Source of the DNA: a virus
Length of the DNA: 45,740 bases
Virus record (IMG/VR): IMGVR_UViG_3300005329_000006
Coordinates: 1 to 45,740 of that record
Reading direction: 5' to 3' (one strand)
Shown: piece by piece, positions 1,673-45,740 of the stretch
Layout of the letters: every line of letters begins with the position of its first letter
How positions within the stretch are numbered: position 1 is the first letter of the stretch
Notes under the pieces: model-generated
Database searches by the model: none
What the model was told of the DNA's origin: nothing
Seen by the model: only the letters and a program-made list of their open reading frames with translations
Made by a program: the position numbers and the translations under genes

Positions 1673-1759
1673 TTGCTCTACCGGATGTGCGAGTCCGGCG
1701 AGCAAAACCGCAAGCGGTCGCAATCAGTTTGCGGGTGCTGGGACGCCGCGAGGCGTCCC
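1673..1759 (+). other. Chain of RNA hairpins after the tail-fibre stop
   Basis: Directly after the stop codon come three inverted repeats. The first is a bipartite stem (TTGCTC 1673-1678 with GAGCAA 1700-1705, enclosing CCGGA/TCCGG). The second is ACCGC/GCGGT at 1707-1718. The third is a perfect 8-bp stem, GGGACGCC/GGCGTCCC at 1740-1759, closed by a GCGA (GNRA-type) tetraloop. No U-tract follows, so this is not a standard intrinsic terminator. The third stem ends 14 nt before the next start codon and could act in RNA processing or stability. Confidence 0.6.
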
Positions 1760-1773
1760 GGCTATTAAGGGAA

Positions 1774-9613: not shown

Positions 9614-10687
9614 ATGCTTCTTGCTCTAAGAAGTCTCTATGAGTCGGCGGGTTCGGCGATTACAGGGACCGCCACGACTGCACAAGCGGCGCAGTCGGAC
9701 GCTCTAAGCGGCGCGCTCGAATTTACCGGGACAGAAACCAGCGCGCAAGCCGCGCAATCGACCGACGCATCGGGCGCGCTCACGTTCACCGGGACCGAGA
9801 CGTCGGCACAAGCCGCACAAACGGACGCTCTAAGCGGATCACTCGAATTTACCGGCACGGAAGCGAGCGCACAGGCGGCGCAATCGACCGCGGCGTCCGG
9901 ATCCGAGACTTTTACGGGAACCGAGACGTCGGCGCAAGCCGCACAGTCGACCGCGGCGTCGGGCGAAGAAACCTTCGCCGGAACTGAGACAAGCGCGCAA
10001 GCGGCGCAATCGGACAGCGCATCCGGCGCGGAAACGTTCACCGGCGCGGAAACCAGCGCACAAGCACAAACGGACGCTCTAAGCGGCGCTCTCGAATTTT
10101 CTGGAACAGGGGCGACGGCGCAAGCGGCGCAAAACGACGACGTCATCGCGACAACTGGTTACGACGGCACGGTCGCGAGCGCGCAAGCTGCACAGTCGGA
10201 CAGCGCATCGGGCGCGGAAACGTTTACGGGATCAATCGCGACCGCACAGTCGCAATCGACGGCGGCATCGGGCGCGGAAACGTTCACCGGCACAGCGACG
10301 ACCGCACAAGCCGCACAGAACACAATCGCCAGCGACGCAAGCGCGGTTACCGGCTCGATCGAGACTTCGCAAGCTGCACAGTCGGACACGGCGACCGGCG
10401 CGACAGTAGAACAGCAAGCGGGCGGATCGGCGGGACGTCAACGTCGACGATCAACCTACAATCCGCCGCGGATCCCGCGTCCATTGTCCGCGCCGCCTGA
10501 GATTATTCCGGCAATTTCCGGGACCGCTCGGACCGGGCAAACCTTGCAACGGTCGACCTTGCTCGCGAATTTGCATTTCGTCGGCGAGCACGAACAATTC
10601 CAGCAAAGACAAACCACCGCGGGATTCGGCGAAGTCGTCGACGTCGAACTCGAATTGCTTACAGCGATCATGCTCGAAGTCGCCTAA
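9614..10687 (+). CDS. Repeat-rich fibre-like protein
   Basis: The protein is 357 residues. After a short N-terminus (MLLALRSLYESAGS) it has twelve imperfect repeats of 20-21 residues with consensus TGTETSAQAAQSxAASGAxTF (residues 17-266). A basic linker (GRQRRRS) follows, then a C-terminal segment with ISGTARTGQTLQ and an acidic end. Similar repeat proteins (MLLALxSLYE start, TG-SxT-AQG units) are common beside phage capsid genes. An elongated fibre or collar role is inferred. The ribosome site is weak (only A-rich sequence before the ATG). Confidence 0.8.
   Translation: MLLALRSLYESAGSAITGTATTAQAAQSDALSGALEFTGTETSAQAAQSTDASGALTFTGTETSAQAAQTDALSGSLEFTGTEASAQAAQSTAASGSETFTGTETSAQAAQSTAASGEETFAGTETSAQAAQSDSASGAETFTGAETSAQAQTDALSGALEFSGTGATAQAAQNDDVIATTGYDGTVASAQAAQSDSASGAETFTGSIATAQSQSTAASGAETFTGTATTAQAAQNTIASDASAVTGSIETSQAAQSDTATGATVEQQAGGSAGRQRRRSTYNPPRIPRPLSAPPEIIPAISGTARTGQTLQRSTLLANLHFVGEHEQFQQRQTTAGFGEVVDVELELLTAIMLEVA
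9662..10411 (+). repeat. Twelve tandem 63-nt coding repeats
   Basis: These DNA repeats encode the 21-residue unit of the fibre-like protein. Ten units are 63 nt and two are 60 nt (units 7 and 10, each missing one residue). The units differ mainly in the variable part after AQAAQ: alternate copies read SDALSGALEF or STAASGAETF. The array therefore looks as if it grew by duplication of one-unit and multi-unit blocks. Confidence 0.9.
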
Positions 10688-30672: not shown

Positions 30673-30682
30673 CGGCAACCAG

Positions 30683-30708
30683 TGGGCCGGACTCCCCCGT
30701 CCGGCTCA
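30683..30708 (+). terminator. GC hairpin after the hairpin-controlled gene
   Basis: TGGGCCGGAC (30683-30692) pairs with GTCCGGCTCA (30699-30708), ten pairs with one G-U, loop TCCCCC. There is no U-tract, so it is a weak or factor-dependent terminator or an RNA 3'-end stabiliser. Confidence 0.6.
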
Positions 30709-30720
30709 CACCAAAGTAAC

Positions 30721-30806
30721 AAACCCCCCGGCATTAACCCCTATTGACACGCCGTTTACCCCGTAATACAGTGTCGAACCATGGCCACAAAACCAAACCC
30801 CGTAAT
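30721..30806. promoter_or_regulatory. Promoter with direct-repeat operators for the RHH gene
   Basis: The -35 box is a perfect TTGACA (30744-30749). After 17 nt comes TACAGT (30767-30772), eight nt before ATG 30781, so the mRNA is probably leaderless. The motif (T)WAACCCCNNAWT recurs: TTAACCCCTATT (30734), TTTACCCCGTAAT (30755) and AAACCCCGTAAT (30795), with a weaker copy at 30721. They overlap -35, spacer and early coding region, as expected for an autoregulated RHH repressor. Confidence 0.7.
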
Positions 30807-38884: not shown

Positions 38885-39350
38885 TAAAGCACTCGCCATT
38901 ATCAGGCGCGCCGGAAAGAAAGAAGCCGAACGCAAGCGGCTCTCGCGGCGCATGTACGGCGTTTACCGAATGATGCAAAAGCGCGCGGCGAAACTCGGGA
39001 AGCAAGGCGAGATCGACTTCGACGTCGAACAGTTGCGGGCCGACGCCTGTTACATGCTCGGGGTTATGTGCGTTTATTGTGCCGCCCGATTGACGAGTAA
39101 AAATATGGGCGTCGATCATTCGATCCCGATCGCCCGCGGCGGAACGTTCTCTCGAATAAATCTCTCGTTTCCGTGCAAGTCTTGCAACGTCAAAAAAGGA
39201 AATTTGTTTCGCGCGGAGTTCGAAGCGCTGTTGTCGTTTTTGGATAACTTCGACACACCGGCGCGCGGCGACGTCTTGCGACGCTTAGGATTGGGCGCTC
39301 AATTTCGAAGCTGGAAATCAACGGAGGAAAACAAAAACAATGCCGGATGA
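38871..39350 (+). CDS. HNH endonuclease-like protein 2
   Basis: The protein is 159 residues: helical basic N-terminus, then CVYC (Cys67, Cys70), VDHSIPIARGG (Asp82, His83), Asn97 and PCKSC (Cys102, Cys105), the HNH/recombination-type nuclease layout. It is different in sequence from the first HNH, 500 bp upstream. The start overlaps the previous gene's end and is ATG 38871. Confidence 0.85.
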   Translation: MNSADKALAIIRRAGKKEAERKRLSRRMYGVYRMMQKRAAKLGKQGEIDFDVEQLRADACYMLGVMCVYCAARLTSKNMGVDHSIPIARGGTFSRINLSFPCKSCNVKKGNLFRAEFEALLSFLDNFDTPARGDVLRRLGLGAQFRSWKSTEENKNNAG

Positions 39351-40014
39351 AGTCGAGTTCTTTAAGCAGATCAAATGTCCCGTCGTTATGACGAACGTGA
39401 CGTTAAAAGTTAACAAAGAGAACGAGAAGCGGATCCGCTTCGACTTCTCATTGCCGCTTACCGCAAAGATCGTGGCGAGCGCGCCCGAAGACGTAAAAGA
39501 CGCTTTCTATTCACTGGCAAAGGACGGCGGGCATCTGACGTCGTCGGAAATCTCGACGGAGTTCGAAGGCGTCGTCGTTTCTTTCTTCGACACGAAGGAC
39601 ACGAAGGCGCCAGCGCTCGAACTTGGCAACTCCCAGATCCGGCAACTCGTCGTCGCTCGCCCGCAAACCAAAAAGGAACTCGACGACGGCGACATCCGGC
39701 TCGCCTTTCACATTAACGCGCCGGGATCGAAAGACGCTTGGAACTGGGGCTATCGGGCGCGCGGAACTGAACTTTGTGCAGTCTTCGAAGAAATGCAACC
39801 CGTCTTCCCGCAATTCAAAGAAGCGAATCCGGACGGCGACGGGCAAGGGATCCTCGAAATGGAGAAATCCGATCCGATCCCGACAGTCCCGGCGAAAGCG
39901 GAGTTCGGCGGCGGAACAAAGTTCGAAGTTCCGAAACCATCGAACCGGGACGCGAGCAAAGTCAAACCGCGGACACCGGCAAAAAAGAAATCGTCGACTA
40001 AGAAGTCGAAATAA
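39340..40014 (+). CDS. Early protein with basic tail; DNA-binding-like (224 aa)
   Basis: The protein is 224 residues. The first 150 have mixed strands (VVMTNVTLKVNKENEKRIRF, EGVVVSFFDTKDTKAP, IRQLVVARPQTKKELDDGDI). The last 30 are Lys/Ser/Pro-rich (AKKKSSTKKSK), like a nucleic-acid-binding tail. It could be a single-strand-binding or recombination helper. The start lies inside the HNH end. Evidence for function is weak. Confidence 0.65.
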   Translation: MPDEVEFFKQIKCPVVMTNVTLKVNKENEKRIRFDFSLPLTAKIVASAPEDVKDAFYSLAKDGGHLTSSEISTEFEGVVVSFFDTKDTKAPALELGNSQIRQLVVARPQTKKELDDGDIRLAFHINAPGSKDAWNWGYRARGTELCAVFEEMQPVFPQFKEANPDGDGQGILEMEKSDPIPTVPAKAEFGGGTKFEVPKPSNRDASKVKPRTPAKKKSSTKKSK

Positions 40015-40063
40015 GTTATTCAATCGGGCGTCACATAAAAACTAAAAACGGAGGAACTACAAA

Positions 40064-40504
40064 ATGAAACGCTTTTTACTTCTGCTCGTTGCTTTGTCAA
40101 CCATTACGCTTGCCGCGTCGCCGTCGTTTGCCGCCTGTTCTCAAACGGGAACGGTCTTCGTCTCAGACTTTGCGACAACCGCGGGCGCGCAAATCTCGGG
40201 ACTCGGTCGAACCGGATGTCTCGCGACCGTGACGTTTCTCGACGCGACTCTCGGATCGACAACCGGATCCGGGACGGAACCCGTCGGCGTTTTCCTTGGG
40301 GCGTGTTCCAGTGGCAACGCGCTATTTGAGACGCAATTACAGGCGGGCGGGAGCATACAGGGCCAAATGGGTGCAGCTAGTCATTACCAGATGGGCGAAA
40401 TGCATTCGATCCTAGTCACCGGCGGGCAAACCTTTTGCATCGGGTTCACGAATCAGCAAGTCGGGTTTACGAGCACGGTTTCGGCGAAGATCGTTTACAG
40501 CTAA
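40064..40504 (+). CDS. Secreted protein of unknown function (146 aa)
   Basis: The protein is 146 residues with a clear signal peptide (MKRFLLLLVALSTITLA, cleavage near SFA-AC). The mature part has four Cys (ACSQTG, RTGCLATV, GACSSG, TFCIGF), probably two disulfides, and beta-strand alternation. A strong ribosome site (CGGAGGAACTA) is shared with the virion-type gene at 16590. A secreted single protein amid early genes could be a surface-modifying or exclusion factor. Directly downstream is a structured RNA. Confidence 0.75.
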   Translation: MKRFLLLLVALSTITLAASPSFAACSQTGTVFVSDFATTAGAQISGLGRTGCLATVTFLDATLGSTTGSGTEPVGVFLGACSSGNALFETQLQAGGSIQGQMGAASHYQMGEMHSILVTGGQTFCIGFTNQQVGFTSTVSAKIVYS

Positions 40505-40508
40505 CCAA

Positions 40509-40664
40509 GGTTTCTCGATCGGACTGAGCACTCAATTGGGTCTTCTCCTAGTGCTTCGTCTTCGAGAGATTCCCGATCGGACTGAGCACTTAACAGCGAG
40601 TGTTTCGTCTTCGGGAATGCGGGATCTTCTCTGTGAGATCCCGCCGGACGGATTCGATGGAATC
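40509..40664 (+). ncRNA. Tandem structured RNA, two covarying stem units plus two hairpins
   Basis: Two units share CGATCGGACTGAGCACT and a matching 3' arm with GTCTTCG. Unit 1 (40509-40571) pairs GGTTTCTCGA with TCGAGAGATT, then GGAC with GTCT and AGCACT with AGTGCT. Unit 2 (40569-40618) pairs ATTCCCGA with TCGGGAAT and the same inner stems. Stem changes are compensated (T-A to C-G, T-A to A-T). Then a 9-bp hairpin GCGGGATCT/AGATCCCGC (40619-40644) and GATTC/GAATC (40651-40664). No frame spans it. It follows the secreted gene. Confidence 0.75.
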
Positions 40665-40685
40665 TTTCGGGCGGGTTCTCACAAA

Positions 40686-40901
40686 ATGAAATGCACAAAA
40701 TGCAAAGGTTCGATCACGTCTAAGCAGCCATATACGCGAACGGAGGCCGGGCCGCATCATTACCGAAAAACGGACTGCAAGAGATCTTCGCCGATCTCTT
40801 TACTAGAAACCTTGTGGGCGTGCGCTTGCGGCTTTACGTGGTTTAGTGAAACCGAACCCGTCGAATGCCCTAGCTGCCACGTAAAGGCCACAAATGGGTA
40901 G
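40686..40901 (+). CDS. Double zinc-ribbon protein (71 aa)
   Basis: The protein is 71 residues: Cys3, Cys6, His24/25, Cys31 (first site) and Cys46, Cys48, Cys61, Cys64 (second site, CACGF and CPSC). Codon use differs slightly from surrounding genes. ATG 40686 was chosen because the upstream frame lies in the structured RNA. No membrane segment. Possible nucleic-acid or protein-binding role. Confidence 0.7.
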   Translation: MKCTKCKGSITSKQPYTRTEAGPHHYRKTDCKRSSPISLLETLWACACGFTWFSETEPVECPSCHVKATNG

Positions 40902-41169
40902 TTGGCCAAAAGAGCAAGGCATTTTCAGATTCCGGGCGGGCGACGCGGTCTTTGTGCGCGATCGCGGACACGGTCGAAACGGCGGCGGATTCCGCATCGT
41001 CGAAGCGAAAGTCATCGAGCCGCATTACCATCCGGACCGTCATCCATCTTATCCCGACGGCGAAGGATACGAACTCGATGGCGAATTGTGGTGGAGTTGT
41101 TATCCGGGATCGAGAGTTTTTAAAACGCGGGCGGAGGCGGTTGCGGCGAGACTGAGCGAGGTTCGTTAA
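40894..41169 (+). CDS. Early protein of unknown function (91 aa)
   Basis: The protein is 91 residues, with FRFRAGDAVFVRDRGHGRNG, then SYPDGEGYELDGELWWSCYP and a helical end. The beta-barrel-like start resembles small SH3-like folds. It overlaps the preceding gene by 8 nt. No family is recognised. Confidence 0.65.
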   Translation: MGSWPKEQGIFRFRAGDAVFVRDRGHGRNGGGFRIVEAKVIEPHYHPDRHPSYPDGEGYELDGELWWSCYPGSRVFKTRAEAVAARLSEVR

Positions 41170-41565
41170 ATGCTGCATACATCGAATTGCGTTTGCGTCG
41201 ACTGTGAGAACGCGCGCGCTCAACAACGCTTGCGCGATCAACAACAATTCGATCACGATCACGACTTCTCAGAAGATCCGAACCGTCCCGGCGAGTGTCT
41301 TTACTGTATGCCGCGCCCGGATCGCGAGGGTTTCTTGCCGACAAATGCCGCGATCGCGGAACAGATCCGCGCCGCCATGAACGAAACGAAGGCAAACGCC
41401 GAAAGGATGTTCGGCGGAATGCTCGCCGAACTGGTCGAAGCTCGCGCCATCCTTCACGAACTCTTGCCGTATTGCCGGACACACGTCAATCAAGAAAGTT
41501 TCAGGGACGCAATCAACCGGGCGGAAAGGTTACTCACTCCAAAAACAAAGGGCGGGACGGTATGA
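41170..41565 (+). CDS. Cys-motif helical protein (131 aa)
   Basis: The protein is 131 residues with CVCVDC near the N-terminus, a His/Asp-rich part (DHDHDFSEDP) and ECLYC, then a helical C-terminus (NAERMFGGMLAELVEARAIL, DAINRAERLL). A metal site at the N-terminus is likely. The stop overlaps the next ATG. Unknown function. Confidence 0.65.
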   Translation: MLHTSNCVCVDCENARAQQRLRDQQQFDHDHDFSEDPNRPGECLYCMPRPDREGFLPTNAAIAEQIRAAMNETKANAERMFGGMLAELVEARAILHELLPYCRTHVNQESFRDAINRAERLLTPKTKGGTV

Positions 41566-41774
41566 AAATCAATTTAAAACACTCGTTCACGGTCGGATCT
41601 ATCACGCGCGATTTCGAATTTAATGCGGAATTGCCGGACGACGCAACCGCTGATCAGATTCAGGCTTGTTTCGAGGGACTCGCCGCTCAACTGGAAGAAG
41701 TCACGCGGGATCTGAGCGACGTTTCCGCGGATCTGGCGGTCGCGGATCTGAGTAAAAATCCGGGCGGCGCATGA
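41562..41774 (+). CDS. Early protein of unknown function (70 aa)
   Basis: The protein is 70 residues, beta then helical: MKINLKHSFTVGSITRDFEF, then ADQIQACFEGLAAQLEEVTR and an Asp-rich end. ATG 41562 overlaps the previous stop. No family is recognised. Confidence 0.65.
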   Translation: MKINLKHSFTVGSITRDFEFNAELPDDATADQIQACFEGLAAQLEEVTRDLSDVSADLAVADLSKNPGGA

Positions 41775-42628
41775 GTCTCGTTAACATCAAACCGAATCTC
41801 GACGCGCCCGCGATTCGAGTCTTTCCCGGTCGCACACCTTGGACGCCGGACGACGAACTCGCCTTTGTCGGTTATCCCCCGTTATTTCGTCCCGGCAATT
41901 ACGAAACGCCGGTTTTCGTGAGCGTCGTTTTTAAATGGTTACGGAAGCGCGGCGAAGAACTGGCGCGCGCTTGGGGCGATTACTACCGAAACGTGCAGAT
42001 CGGCGGTCCGGCTTATGACGGCGGCGCGGGCGGCGCATTTACGCCGGGAATGTTTCTAAAAAAAGGCTGCACGATCACAAGCCGCGGATGTACTAAGGAC
42101 TGCGGTTGGTGCGTCGAGCGTTTTAATCCGCTCATTGAATTGGACATAAAACCCGGTTGGATCGTTCAAGACTCGAACCTTTTATCGTGCTCGGAAAAAC
42201 ACGTCCGGGCCGTTTTCGATATGTTGCGCGAACAAAGGCGGGCGATCTTTTTTAACGGCGGACTCGACAAACACTTTCTCAAAGACTGGCATCGACCGTT
42301 ATTCGATTCGATCAAGATTGGGGAACTCTGGTTTGCTTGCGACGTAACGAAGGATCTTTCTTGGATGGAACGAGCGGCGGGAATCTTGGACGGAATACCA
42401 CTTCGCAAGCGTCGTTGTTACACAATGATCGGTTACGACGACGAATCGCTCGCGGACGCCGAACGCCGGATTGAGCGCGTGTTCGAACTCGGGTTTATGC
42501 CGTTTTGCCAGTTATATCAACCGGACGACTACGTCAAAGTTTATGCGGACGACTGGCGCGCACTACGGCGCAAATGGTCGCGTCCGGCGGCATACATGGG
42601 AAAACAAAATCCGGGCGGGACGCAATGA
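41771..42628 (+). CDS. Radical SAM-like enzyme
   Basis: The protein is 285 residues with TITSRGCTKDCGWC, the CxxxCxxC triad (Cys107, 111, 114) of radical SAM enzymes that binds a 4Fe-4S cluster. The N-terminal part (VFVSVVFKWLRKRGEELARA, NVQIGGPAYD) and later IIFFNGGLDKHFLK-like and MIGYDDESLADAERRI segments fit a TIM-barrel radical SAM fold. Its substrate is unknown; candidates are nucleic acid, peptide or sugar modification. ATG overlaps the preceding stop; its stop overlaps the next ATG. Confidence 0.85.
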   Translation: MSLVNIKPNLDAPAIRVFPGRTPWTPDDELAFVGYPPLFRPGNYETPVFVSVVFKWLRKRGEELARAWGDYYRNVQIGGPAYDGGAGGAFTPGMFLKKGCTITSRGCTKDCGWCVERFNPLIELDIKPGWIVQDSNLLSCSEKHVRAVFDMLREQRRAIFFNGGLDKHFLKDWHRPLFDSIKIGELWFACDVTKDLSWMERAAGILDGIPLRKRRCYTMIGYDDESLADAERRIERVFELGFMPFCQLYQPDDYVKVYADDWRALRRKWSRPAAYMGKQNPGGTQ

Positions 42629-42807
42629 CACAAACCGACCAGATTCGGGCCGAAATGATCGCCGCCGTAACACGCGCCGGATGGCGCGAAGAACGCAACC
42701 GGCGCGACGTTTGGCGTTGGCGAGATCCCAAAACGAAAGCGCTTCACACGCTCAAAGACGCTTTCGACCTACTCAAGAGTAACCCTGCGTTTTCAAAAAA
42801 ATCTTGA
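42625..42807 (+). CDS. Small protein after radical SAM gene (60 aa)
   Basis: The protein is 60 residues, basic and helical: RAEMIAAVTRAGWREERNRR, then DVWRWRDPKTKALHTLKDAF. It is coupled to the radical SAM gene (ATGA), so it could be a partner or recognition protein. No family is recognised. It ends just before a promoter-like sequence. Confidence 0.65.
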   Translation: MTQTDQIRAEMIAAVTRAGWREERNRRDVWRWRDPKTKALHTLKDAFDLLKSNPAFSKKS

Positions 42808-42922
42808 CTTTCATAATTCCCGCCCGGTACTGTTGGCGCAACCGTTGATAGTTCAGTGACTTACCTCAGTGTTAGGGGTTTTCCCGGTTCGAGACGGGGC
42901 CGGGAAACCCTTTAGCAGCGCC
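42804..42922 (+). promoter_or_regulatory. Promoter and hairpin RNA before small-gene region
   Basis: TTGACT (42804-42809), 18-nt spacer and TACTGT (42828-42833) form a moderate promoter. About 40 nt later GGGGTTTTCCCGG (42875-42887) pairs with CCGGGAAACCCT (42900-42911), 11 pairs plus a G-U and one bulge, loop TTCGAGACGGGG, followed by TTTAG. GGCGC (42835-42839) and GCGCC (42918-42922) could close the whole. It may be a short RNA or an attenuator for the gene at 42969. A perfect palindrome CTAGCGCTAG lies at 42953-42962. Confidence 0.55.
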
Positions 42923-44860: not shown

Positions 44861-45076
44861 AAGTGGGAAGGCGGATCGAAATCTTTACAGAAACGAGGCA
44901 TCGGAGGCCGCGGGCCTCGACTACGAAAATCCGCGAAATTGGTAAGGGCCATTGTTTTCAACGATTTACCGACCGTAGCTATGATAGCGCTATGGTAGCT
45001 ATGTTGTTAGTTTTCAGCGATTTACGGGCCTAAAAGAAGTGGGAAAACATGCTCTTTTTGTGGCAAAAAGTGGGAA
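44861..45076. promoter_or_regulatory. Repeat-rich control region before the small terminase (cos candidate)
   Basis: AAGTGGGAA occurs three times (44861, 45037, 45068). TTTTCARCGATTTAC occurs twice (44955, 45011; 14 of 15). Between them, GTAGCTATG (44975 and 44995) flanks the palindrome ATAGCGCTAT (44984-44993). A GC hairpin GAGGCC-GCG-GGCCTC sits at 44904-44918. No gene fits this stretch. The nested symmetry between HNH and small terminase suggests a cos site, origin or regulatory complex. Confidence 0.6.
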
Positions 45077-45086
45077 TCTTTTAGAG

Positions 45087-45515
45087 ATGCGTGGAAGAAA
45101 ACCGAAACCGTTACGAATCCAGTTGGCGGAAGGCGATACCCGGAAAATCGGGAAGCGAAAATTAAGCGAAGCGCTCGCGCACGAACCGCGGTCGACGCCG
45201 GACGTCGGACCGGCACCCAAATGCCTGAAACGGGACGAGCGGGCGGAATACAACGCGCTACGCGACGCACTGGAAGCGCTAGGACTGCTCGACAAGGCCG
45301 ACGAGGCGGTTATTACCCTTGCGGCGATCGCAAGCGCTACAGCGAAGCGGGAACGCACGGGACAGGCATTGCGGACGGCGTTCTCGTTCCTATCGAGTCT
45401 GGGTTTGGCCGGATCTTCGAGTCGGGCGCGCTTGTCGGTCGAGAAACCGGATAACGGGGCGGCGGAACTGGCGGCGATCTTGAACCGACCGCGACCGGAC
45501 AAGACGATCCAATAG
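45087..45515 (+). CDS. terS: Terminase small subunit (P27-like)
   Basis: The protein is 142 residues: MRGRKPKPLRIQLAEGDTRK, then APKCLKRDERAEYNALRDAL and LDKADEAVITLAAIASATAK, and a short end with LAAILNRP. This is the P27-type small terminase that recognises packaging DNA and guides the large subunit. ATG 45087 was chosen as the start nearest the conserved GRKPKP segment. The packaging site is expected nearby: the repeat arrays before and after it are candidates. Confidence 0.9.
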   Translation: MRGRKPKPLRIQLAEGDTRKIGKRKLSEALAHEPRSTPDVGPAPKCLKRDERAEYNALRDALEALGLLDKADEAVITLAAIASATAKRERTGQALRTAFSFLSSLGLAGSSSRARLSVEKPDNGAAELAAILNRPRPDKTIQ

Positions 45516-45521
45516 ATCGCA

Positions 45522-45613
45522 TGGAAGTTCCATGGAAGTTCCGTGGAACTTTTGGAAGTCGTTCAAAACACTATCGGAACTTTTTTGGAACTTTCTGGAA
45601 CTTCTGGAACTTT
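45522..45613. repeat. Eight phased TGGAASTTY repeats (packaging-site candidate)
   Basis: Units begin at 45522, 45533, 45544, 45553, 45575, 45586, 45596 and 45605: two TGGAAGTTC, three TGGAACTTT, one CGGAACTTT, one TGGAACTTC and one TGGAAGTCG. Steps are 9-11 bp except one double step, so all face one side of the helix with one site missing near 45564. It lies just after the small terminase stop and before the fibre gene, filling the gap. Confidence 0.8.
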
Positions 45614-45618
45614 TGTAA

Positions 45619-45740
45619 ATGCCTAGCACGTTCACAACGCGATACGGGTTCGAGAAACCGCCGATCGGGATAACGACCGGATGGGGCGCGTCCCATAACA
45701 CGGACTTGGATTCGATGGACGCGCTATTCGGGACGCTCGA
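45619..45740 (+). CDS. Tail-fibre-like protein, 5' part (continues at base 2 after circularisation)
   Basis: ATG 45619 (MPSTFTTRYGFEKPPIGITT, GWGASHN) opens the 566-residue fibre-like protein. The frame continues through the terminal repeat into base 91 of the window, giving one uninterrupted frame to the stop at 1667-1669. The N-terminus, with Gly-Phe-Glu-Lys-Pro-Pro, resembles the attachment ends of head or tail fibres. There is no clear ribosome site right before the ATG, only the last TGGAACTTT repeat. Confidence 0.8.
   Translation, partial: MPSTFTTRYGFEKPPIGITTGWGASHNTDLDSMDALFGTL
45651..45740. repeat. Terminal direct repeat (circular closure), copy 2
   Basis: Identical to bases 1-90, in direct orientation. 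Together with copy 1 it shows that the ends join. Confidence 0.95.

Follow-up and report, generated by a model that had tools for sequence, protein, structure and literature searches.

A run of stable hairpins in an intergenic spacer of an uncultured soil phage and its predicted role as an intercistronic mRNA element

The window, by which we mean the whole 45,740 nt stretch of DNA that was analysed, was a single virus record (IMGVR_UViG_3300005329_000006), and its first and last 90 bases were found to be identical (1-90 = 45651-45740). This exact terminal repeat indicates that the assembly, of about 45.65 kb, is complete and either circular or circularly permuted, and the genome junction was crossed by near-identical contigs. 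The genome carries genes for a large terminase, a portal, a major head protein, an Erf-like annealing protein and an exonuclease, and we regard the virus as an uncultured soil phage. As the terminase was 61-70% identical to prophage terminases in one Acidobacteriota class, with a record titled uncultured Acidobacteriia bacterium also matching in this range, the host probably belongs to that group. Repeats were seen inside a gene for 357 aa that lies among the structural genes (63-nt units, 9657-10402), immediately 5' of the large terminase gene (two short related repeats, AACCGCAATATATTG / AACCGCAACATATTG, at 2630-2698) and right after the small-terminase-like gene 45039-45515, where about seven TGGAACTT/GGAAGTTCC repeats form a strongly structured stretch (45520-45618, z -4.0) that could possibly hold terminase-binding (pac/cos) iterons or a replication site.

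The spacer described here, 40505-40685, lies between a gene for a putative secreted protein and a small ORF on the same strand (Table 1). A Shine-Dalgarno sequence, GGAGG, stands upstream of the secreted-protein gene at 40050-40054. The 146-aa product had no match in Pfam, PHROG or NCBIfam and gave an AlphaFold model of low confidence (pLDDT 46), and no homologues were found in IMG/VR beyond the same virus, in phages or in 396 Acidobacteriota genomes. The ORF that follows the spacer matched no family in Pfam or NCBIfam. Homologues of gene 39340 were found only in the same virus and in L035, a single distant relative whose neighbouring genes are homologous and whose major head protein is 38% identical; there the homologue is directly followed by a radical-SAM-like gene, and the inserted stretch 40015-41770 is absent. 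L035 has a long bulged hairpin in the same neighbourhood (L035:2795-2910, z -5.2), where it separates an HNH gene from the one that follows. The radical-SAM-like gene of the window (41771-42628) belongs to PHROG 9298 and shows 56-77% identity to genes in many otherwise unrelated viral contigs, and we consider it a widely exchanged accessory gene.

Table 1. Coordinates of the hairpins and of the genes that flank them.
Feature	Coordinates	Strand	Remarks
Array parallel to the spacer, three consecutive hairpins	1673-1762	+	No U-tract; after tail-fibre gene; z -5.43 for 1665-1775
Secreted-protein gene	40064-40504	+	146 aa; signal peptide by eye; only frame with a positive codon score
Hairpin unit 1	40511-40569	+	17-nt loop; z -4.00, alignment and pair count
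Hairpin unit 2	40570-40618	+	8-nt loop; outer stem diverged; z -4.78
Alternative third hairpin	40619-40644	+	-16.3 to -17.1 kcal/mol alone; competes with 40632-40683
Long 3' hairpin	40632-40683	+	-35.3 kcal/mol; pairing probability near 1
Next ORF (ORF 40686)	40686-40901	+	71 aa; rich in Cys and by eye resembling a zinc ribbon; no clear, free Shine-Dalgarno sequence

An earlier note on this DNA had placed two tandem RNA stems directly after the secreted-protein gene, and both the stems and their location behind a gene whose ribosome-binding site is strong were borne out, with the structure on the gene-sense strand. Unit 1 starts 6 nt past the stop codon, and G-U pairs can lengthen its stem to 40509-40571. 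Both units were predicted as simple bulged hairpins by folding without pseudoknots, and they share a layout in which 8 bp are followed by a bulge of 2 nt (UC), 4 bp, a 1x1 mismatch (U.C) and 7 bp. The sequence GATCGGACTGAGCACT is present exactly twice, at 40517-40532 and 40575-40590, with no further copy in the window even when 3 mismatches were allowed; with TTCGTCTTCG, which the units also have in common, it makes up a shared core of 16 nt on the 5' side and 10 nt on the 3' side. Besides the z-scores of the units against shuffled sequences, a z-score of -6.19 was obtained for the spacer (40500-40690), and none of 200 shuffles was as stable as the native sequence in any of the three tests. 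In a genome-wide regression z-scan with 110-nt windows, where the top loci were mostly spacers, 40541-40690 was among the four most structured loci, and the long 3' hairpin had the lowest energy of any single local hairpin in the whole-genome list for the sense strand.

The stability depends on strand. Folding of 40509-40618 gave -49.7 kcal/mol for the sense strand and -35.6 kcal/mol for the opposite strand, on which the G-U pairs of the stems turn into A.C mismatches, and a sense-antisense gap that large was reached by just 1.6% of this genome's windows. Codon scores for the spacer were negative in the frames checked, giving no coding signal. We consider this strand preference a better argument for a maintained RNA structure than the base changes between the units, which the earlier note had called strong evidence of compensation. 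Among 19 aligned pairs, 15 are invariant, 2 differ in one base only (G-C/G-U and T-G/T-A, with pairing kept through G-U) and 2 are changed on both sides (T-A/C-G and T-A/A-T). All 4 variable pairs still pair, but only when G-U is counted, as in RNA. As the T-A/A-T change lies in the outermost pair of unit 2 (A40569-T40618), which would use the base that also ends the stem of unit 1, T-A/C-G is the one independent double change. With T-A/A-T set aside, the four substitutions left are all transitions, and simulated neutral drift kept all 18 remaining pairs with a probability of 0.009-0.084, depending on transition bias. A shuffle control on covariation, drawn from two sequences only, was not significant (120/500). 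The part of the claim that stands is that the varying pairs still pair; with one clean double change, the base changes are suggestive of, and compatible with, a maintained structure and fall short of strong proof. We regard the hairpin run 40505-40685 as a real and striking RNA structure, for which the evidence of selection is moderate.

The earlier note had named no RNA family with such a layout, which agrees with our searches: Rfam 15 gave no match in the window at the gathering threshold, and at relaxed thresholds the best E-values over 40300-40900 were 2.5 or worse. ARAGORN matched no tRNA or tmRNA. In a core-pattern search of IMG/VR, exact and relaxed, the sole copy among the matches listed was on IMGVR_UViG_3300025920_000042, an identical contig from this same virus, while 7 further matches to pattern 2 and at least 120 to pattern 3 did not extend into the same hairpin. 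Near-identical contigs differed by 0-2 SNPs over 9-16 kb, with 0 in the element. The proposed covariance-model search of phage and host genomes was carried out with a model, R1, built from two sequences of one genome, which would miss diverged relatives. It was run on the loci of neighbour-gene relatives, virus records, one genome, TerL-related prophage contigs (L188-L198) and 396 Acidobacteriota genomes, and gave chance-level scores only (best E 0.015 per genome among the 396), with alignments that break the stems; the search thus yielded no homologue, a negative that is weak for a two-sequence model. Across IMG/VR, records of phages and plasmids, related prophages and about 400 genomes of Acidobacteriota, no homologue of the element turned up outside the same virus, to which it is thus confined among the data covered here. 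The element is probably of an ordinary kind with unrelated sequence, its function being a prediction.

Promoter-like sites and further hairpins of the genome give this spacer its context. On the sense strand no promoter-like site was found within 39119-42790, and the best sigma-70-like ones were at 30744-30772 (TTGACA-17-TACAGT) and 42804-42833 (TTGACT-18-TACTGT), which makes it probable that the spacer is part of an operon. Each of these promoters is near a stable spacer hairpin without a U-tract (30682-30709 and 42870-42917), and the array behind the tail-fibre gene, which is of the same kind, is likewise one of the top z-scan loci. These similar arrays and strong hairpins in other spacers suggest a generic intercistronic role.

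Our preferred reading, to which we give a probability of about 0.5, is that the spacer works between the cistrons as a barrier or processing element of the mRNA and insulates the well-translated secreted-protein gene. It draws on the predicted fold and its excess stability, the strand preference, the position at a gene boundary, the want of a U-tract and of a coding signal, the further hairpins without U-tracts in this genome and the long hairpin of L035; a stable stem at such a boundary with no U-tract is what an exonuclease block would look like, and membership of an operon is taken from the missing promoter-like sites. The spacer would be co-transcribed with its neighbours, and its RNA would fold into three very stable stems, two of them diverged bulged copies and one a long hairpin. 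Transcripts cut or ended downstream would be trimmed back as far as the stems, which would halt 3'-to-5' exonucleases and so leave the secreted-protein message intact. The last stem may hold the weak start of ORF 40686 closed, and the bulged double-stranded stems may be cut by RNase III, parting the two messages. Redundant stems would make sense here, as a terminating ribosome would melt unit 1, which begins so close to the stop codon. Against a barrier, no homologue came to light that would show selection on the structure, the shared core may reflect recent duplication, or may speak for sequence-specific recognition and not for a generic barrier, and several other functions would be served equally by the same stability. 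If the barrier reading is true, it would show by what means an uncultured phage that probably infects Acidobacteriota gives the genes of one long operon unequal expression, and the duplicated unit offers a natural variant pair for structure probing.

The earlier note had raised the possibility of a small RNA derived from the 3'-UTR; in this reading, 110-180 nt of the spacer would be processed from the mRNA of the secreted-protein gene to act in trans during infection. A stable, non-coding RNA on the sense strand, right after a gene with a strong Shine-Dalgarno sequence, would suit such a role, but the spacer offers neither a promoter-like site of its own nor a 3' end with a U-tract, its predicted fold leaves few unpaired stretches for target pairing, and similar arrays occur in other spacers, such as 1673-1762. 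The proposal therefore went unsupported, and we consider it unlikely, although it is the first of the alternatives. Following it, and also improbable, is a cluster of terminators that closes an inserted accessory cassette made up of the secreted-protein gene and the stems. Strong stems right after a gene would fit this, and the arrangement in L035, where the gene 39340 homologue directly precedes the radical-SAM-like gene, makes the stretch look like an accessory insertion. However, no intrinsic (Rho-independent) terminator was called in 40505-40690, where no stem has a U-tract after it, whereas the genome's other terminators (12627, 17024 and 29279) have one, and no sense-strand promoter-like site lies downstream before 42790.

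The 3' part of the spacer bears on a further reading, that ORF 40686 is controlled in cis by a switch or a translational attenuator, in which the units would bind a ligand or protein and the exchange between 40619-40644 and 40632-40683 would open or close the start. A third and a fourth hairpin had been reported there; 40619-40644 can form, but the two are mostly alternatives that merge into the one long stem. That stem ends 2 nt short of the AUG of ORF 40686, and its 3' arm covers GGCGGG, the sole Shine-Dalgarno-like stretch, 10 nt upstream of the AUG. The two 3' structures exclude each other, and the near-identical tandem units with their conserved bulge and mismatch look like tandem binding sites, both of which would suit a switch. 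Against it, over 40619-40690 the state with 40619-40644 forced gave -26.3 kcal/mol versus -37.8 kcal/mol with the long stem, leaving the states 11.5 kcal/mol apart; competing helices overlapping as observed were common by chance (619/2000 shuffles, in an ungapped and hence partial test that leaves helices with a mismatch uncounted), no riboswitch family matched, and ORF 40686 is without a known function. We hold a switch to be doubtful. Equally doubtful, in our estimate, is that the units are tandem copies of a new phage RNA recognition element, specific for a ligand, protein or nuclease, whose UC bulge and U.C mismatch would be recognised and which would govern a released small RNA or the exchange between 40619-40644 and 40632-40683. 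Specific recognition sites of this sort would make the units a new phage RNA element, and to our knowledge the phage RNAs of Acidobacteriota have hardly been studied.

Lower still we rank DNA palindromes, whether protein-binding or mobile inverted repeats, or pairing kept by quasi-palindrome templated mutation and not by selection on RNA. The units are inverted repeats, templated repair can yield a single double change, and the neutral probability rises to 0.08 under high transition bias, but the G-T positions in the stems would be mismatches in DNA, the opposite strand folds clearly worse and there are no other copies in the genome. Coding and type III toxin-antitoxin readings were also ranked low, the latter with no ToxN/AbiQ-like toxin downstream, where 40686, 40894 and 41170 had no Pfam or NCBIfam match.

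Among known systems, the early region of phage T7 has RNase III processing hairpins between its genes. Like these, the units are irregular stems with bulges, about 20 bp long and placed between cistrons on the sense strand, but here the unit is duplicated and RNase III cutting is only a candidate. Tandem-aptamer riboswitches have two similar units followed, ahead of a start codon, by stems that exclude each other, an order also seen here, although the spacer has no Rfam match and its competing stems were not beyond chance in the ungapped test. The ToxI RNA of type III toxin-antitoxin systems (PMC8860590) likewise consists of tandem structured repeat units upstream of a small ORF; its repeats are H-type pseudoknots of about 36 nt, in contrast to the nested bulged hairpins of 49-59 nt here, beside which no ToxN-like gene was found. 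In the gal operon of E. coli, a hairpin with a single 8-bp stem blocks exonucleases and stabilises the galE mRNA (PMC11925234), whereas the phage spacer has an array of duplicated bulged stems of predicted function. Both are stable stems near a gene boundary of an operon, or of a probable one, and neither is an intrinsic terminator; since the galE hairpin stabilises the upstream message (PMC11925234), we propose by likeness that the spacer may do so for the secreted-protein gene.
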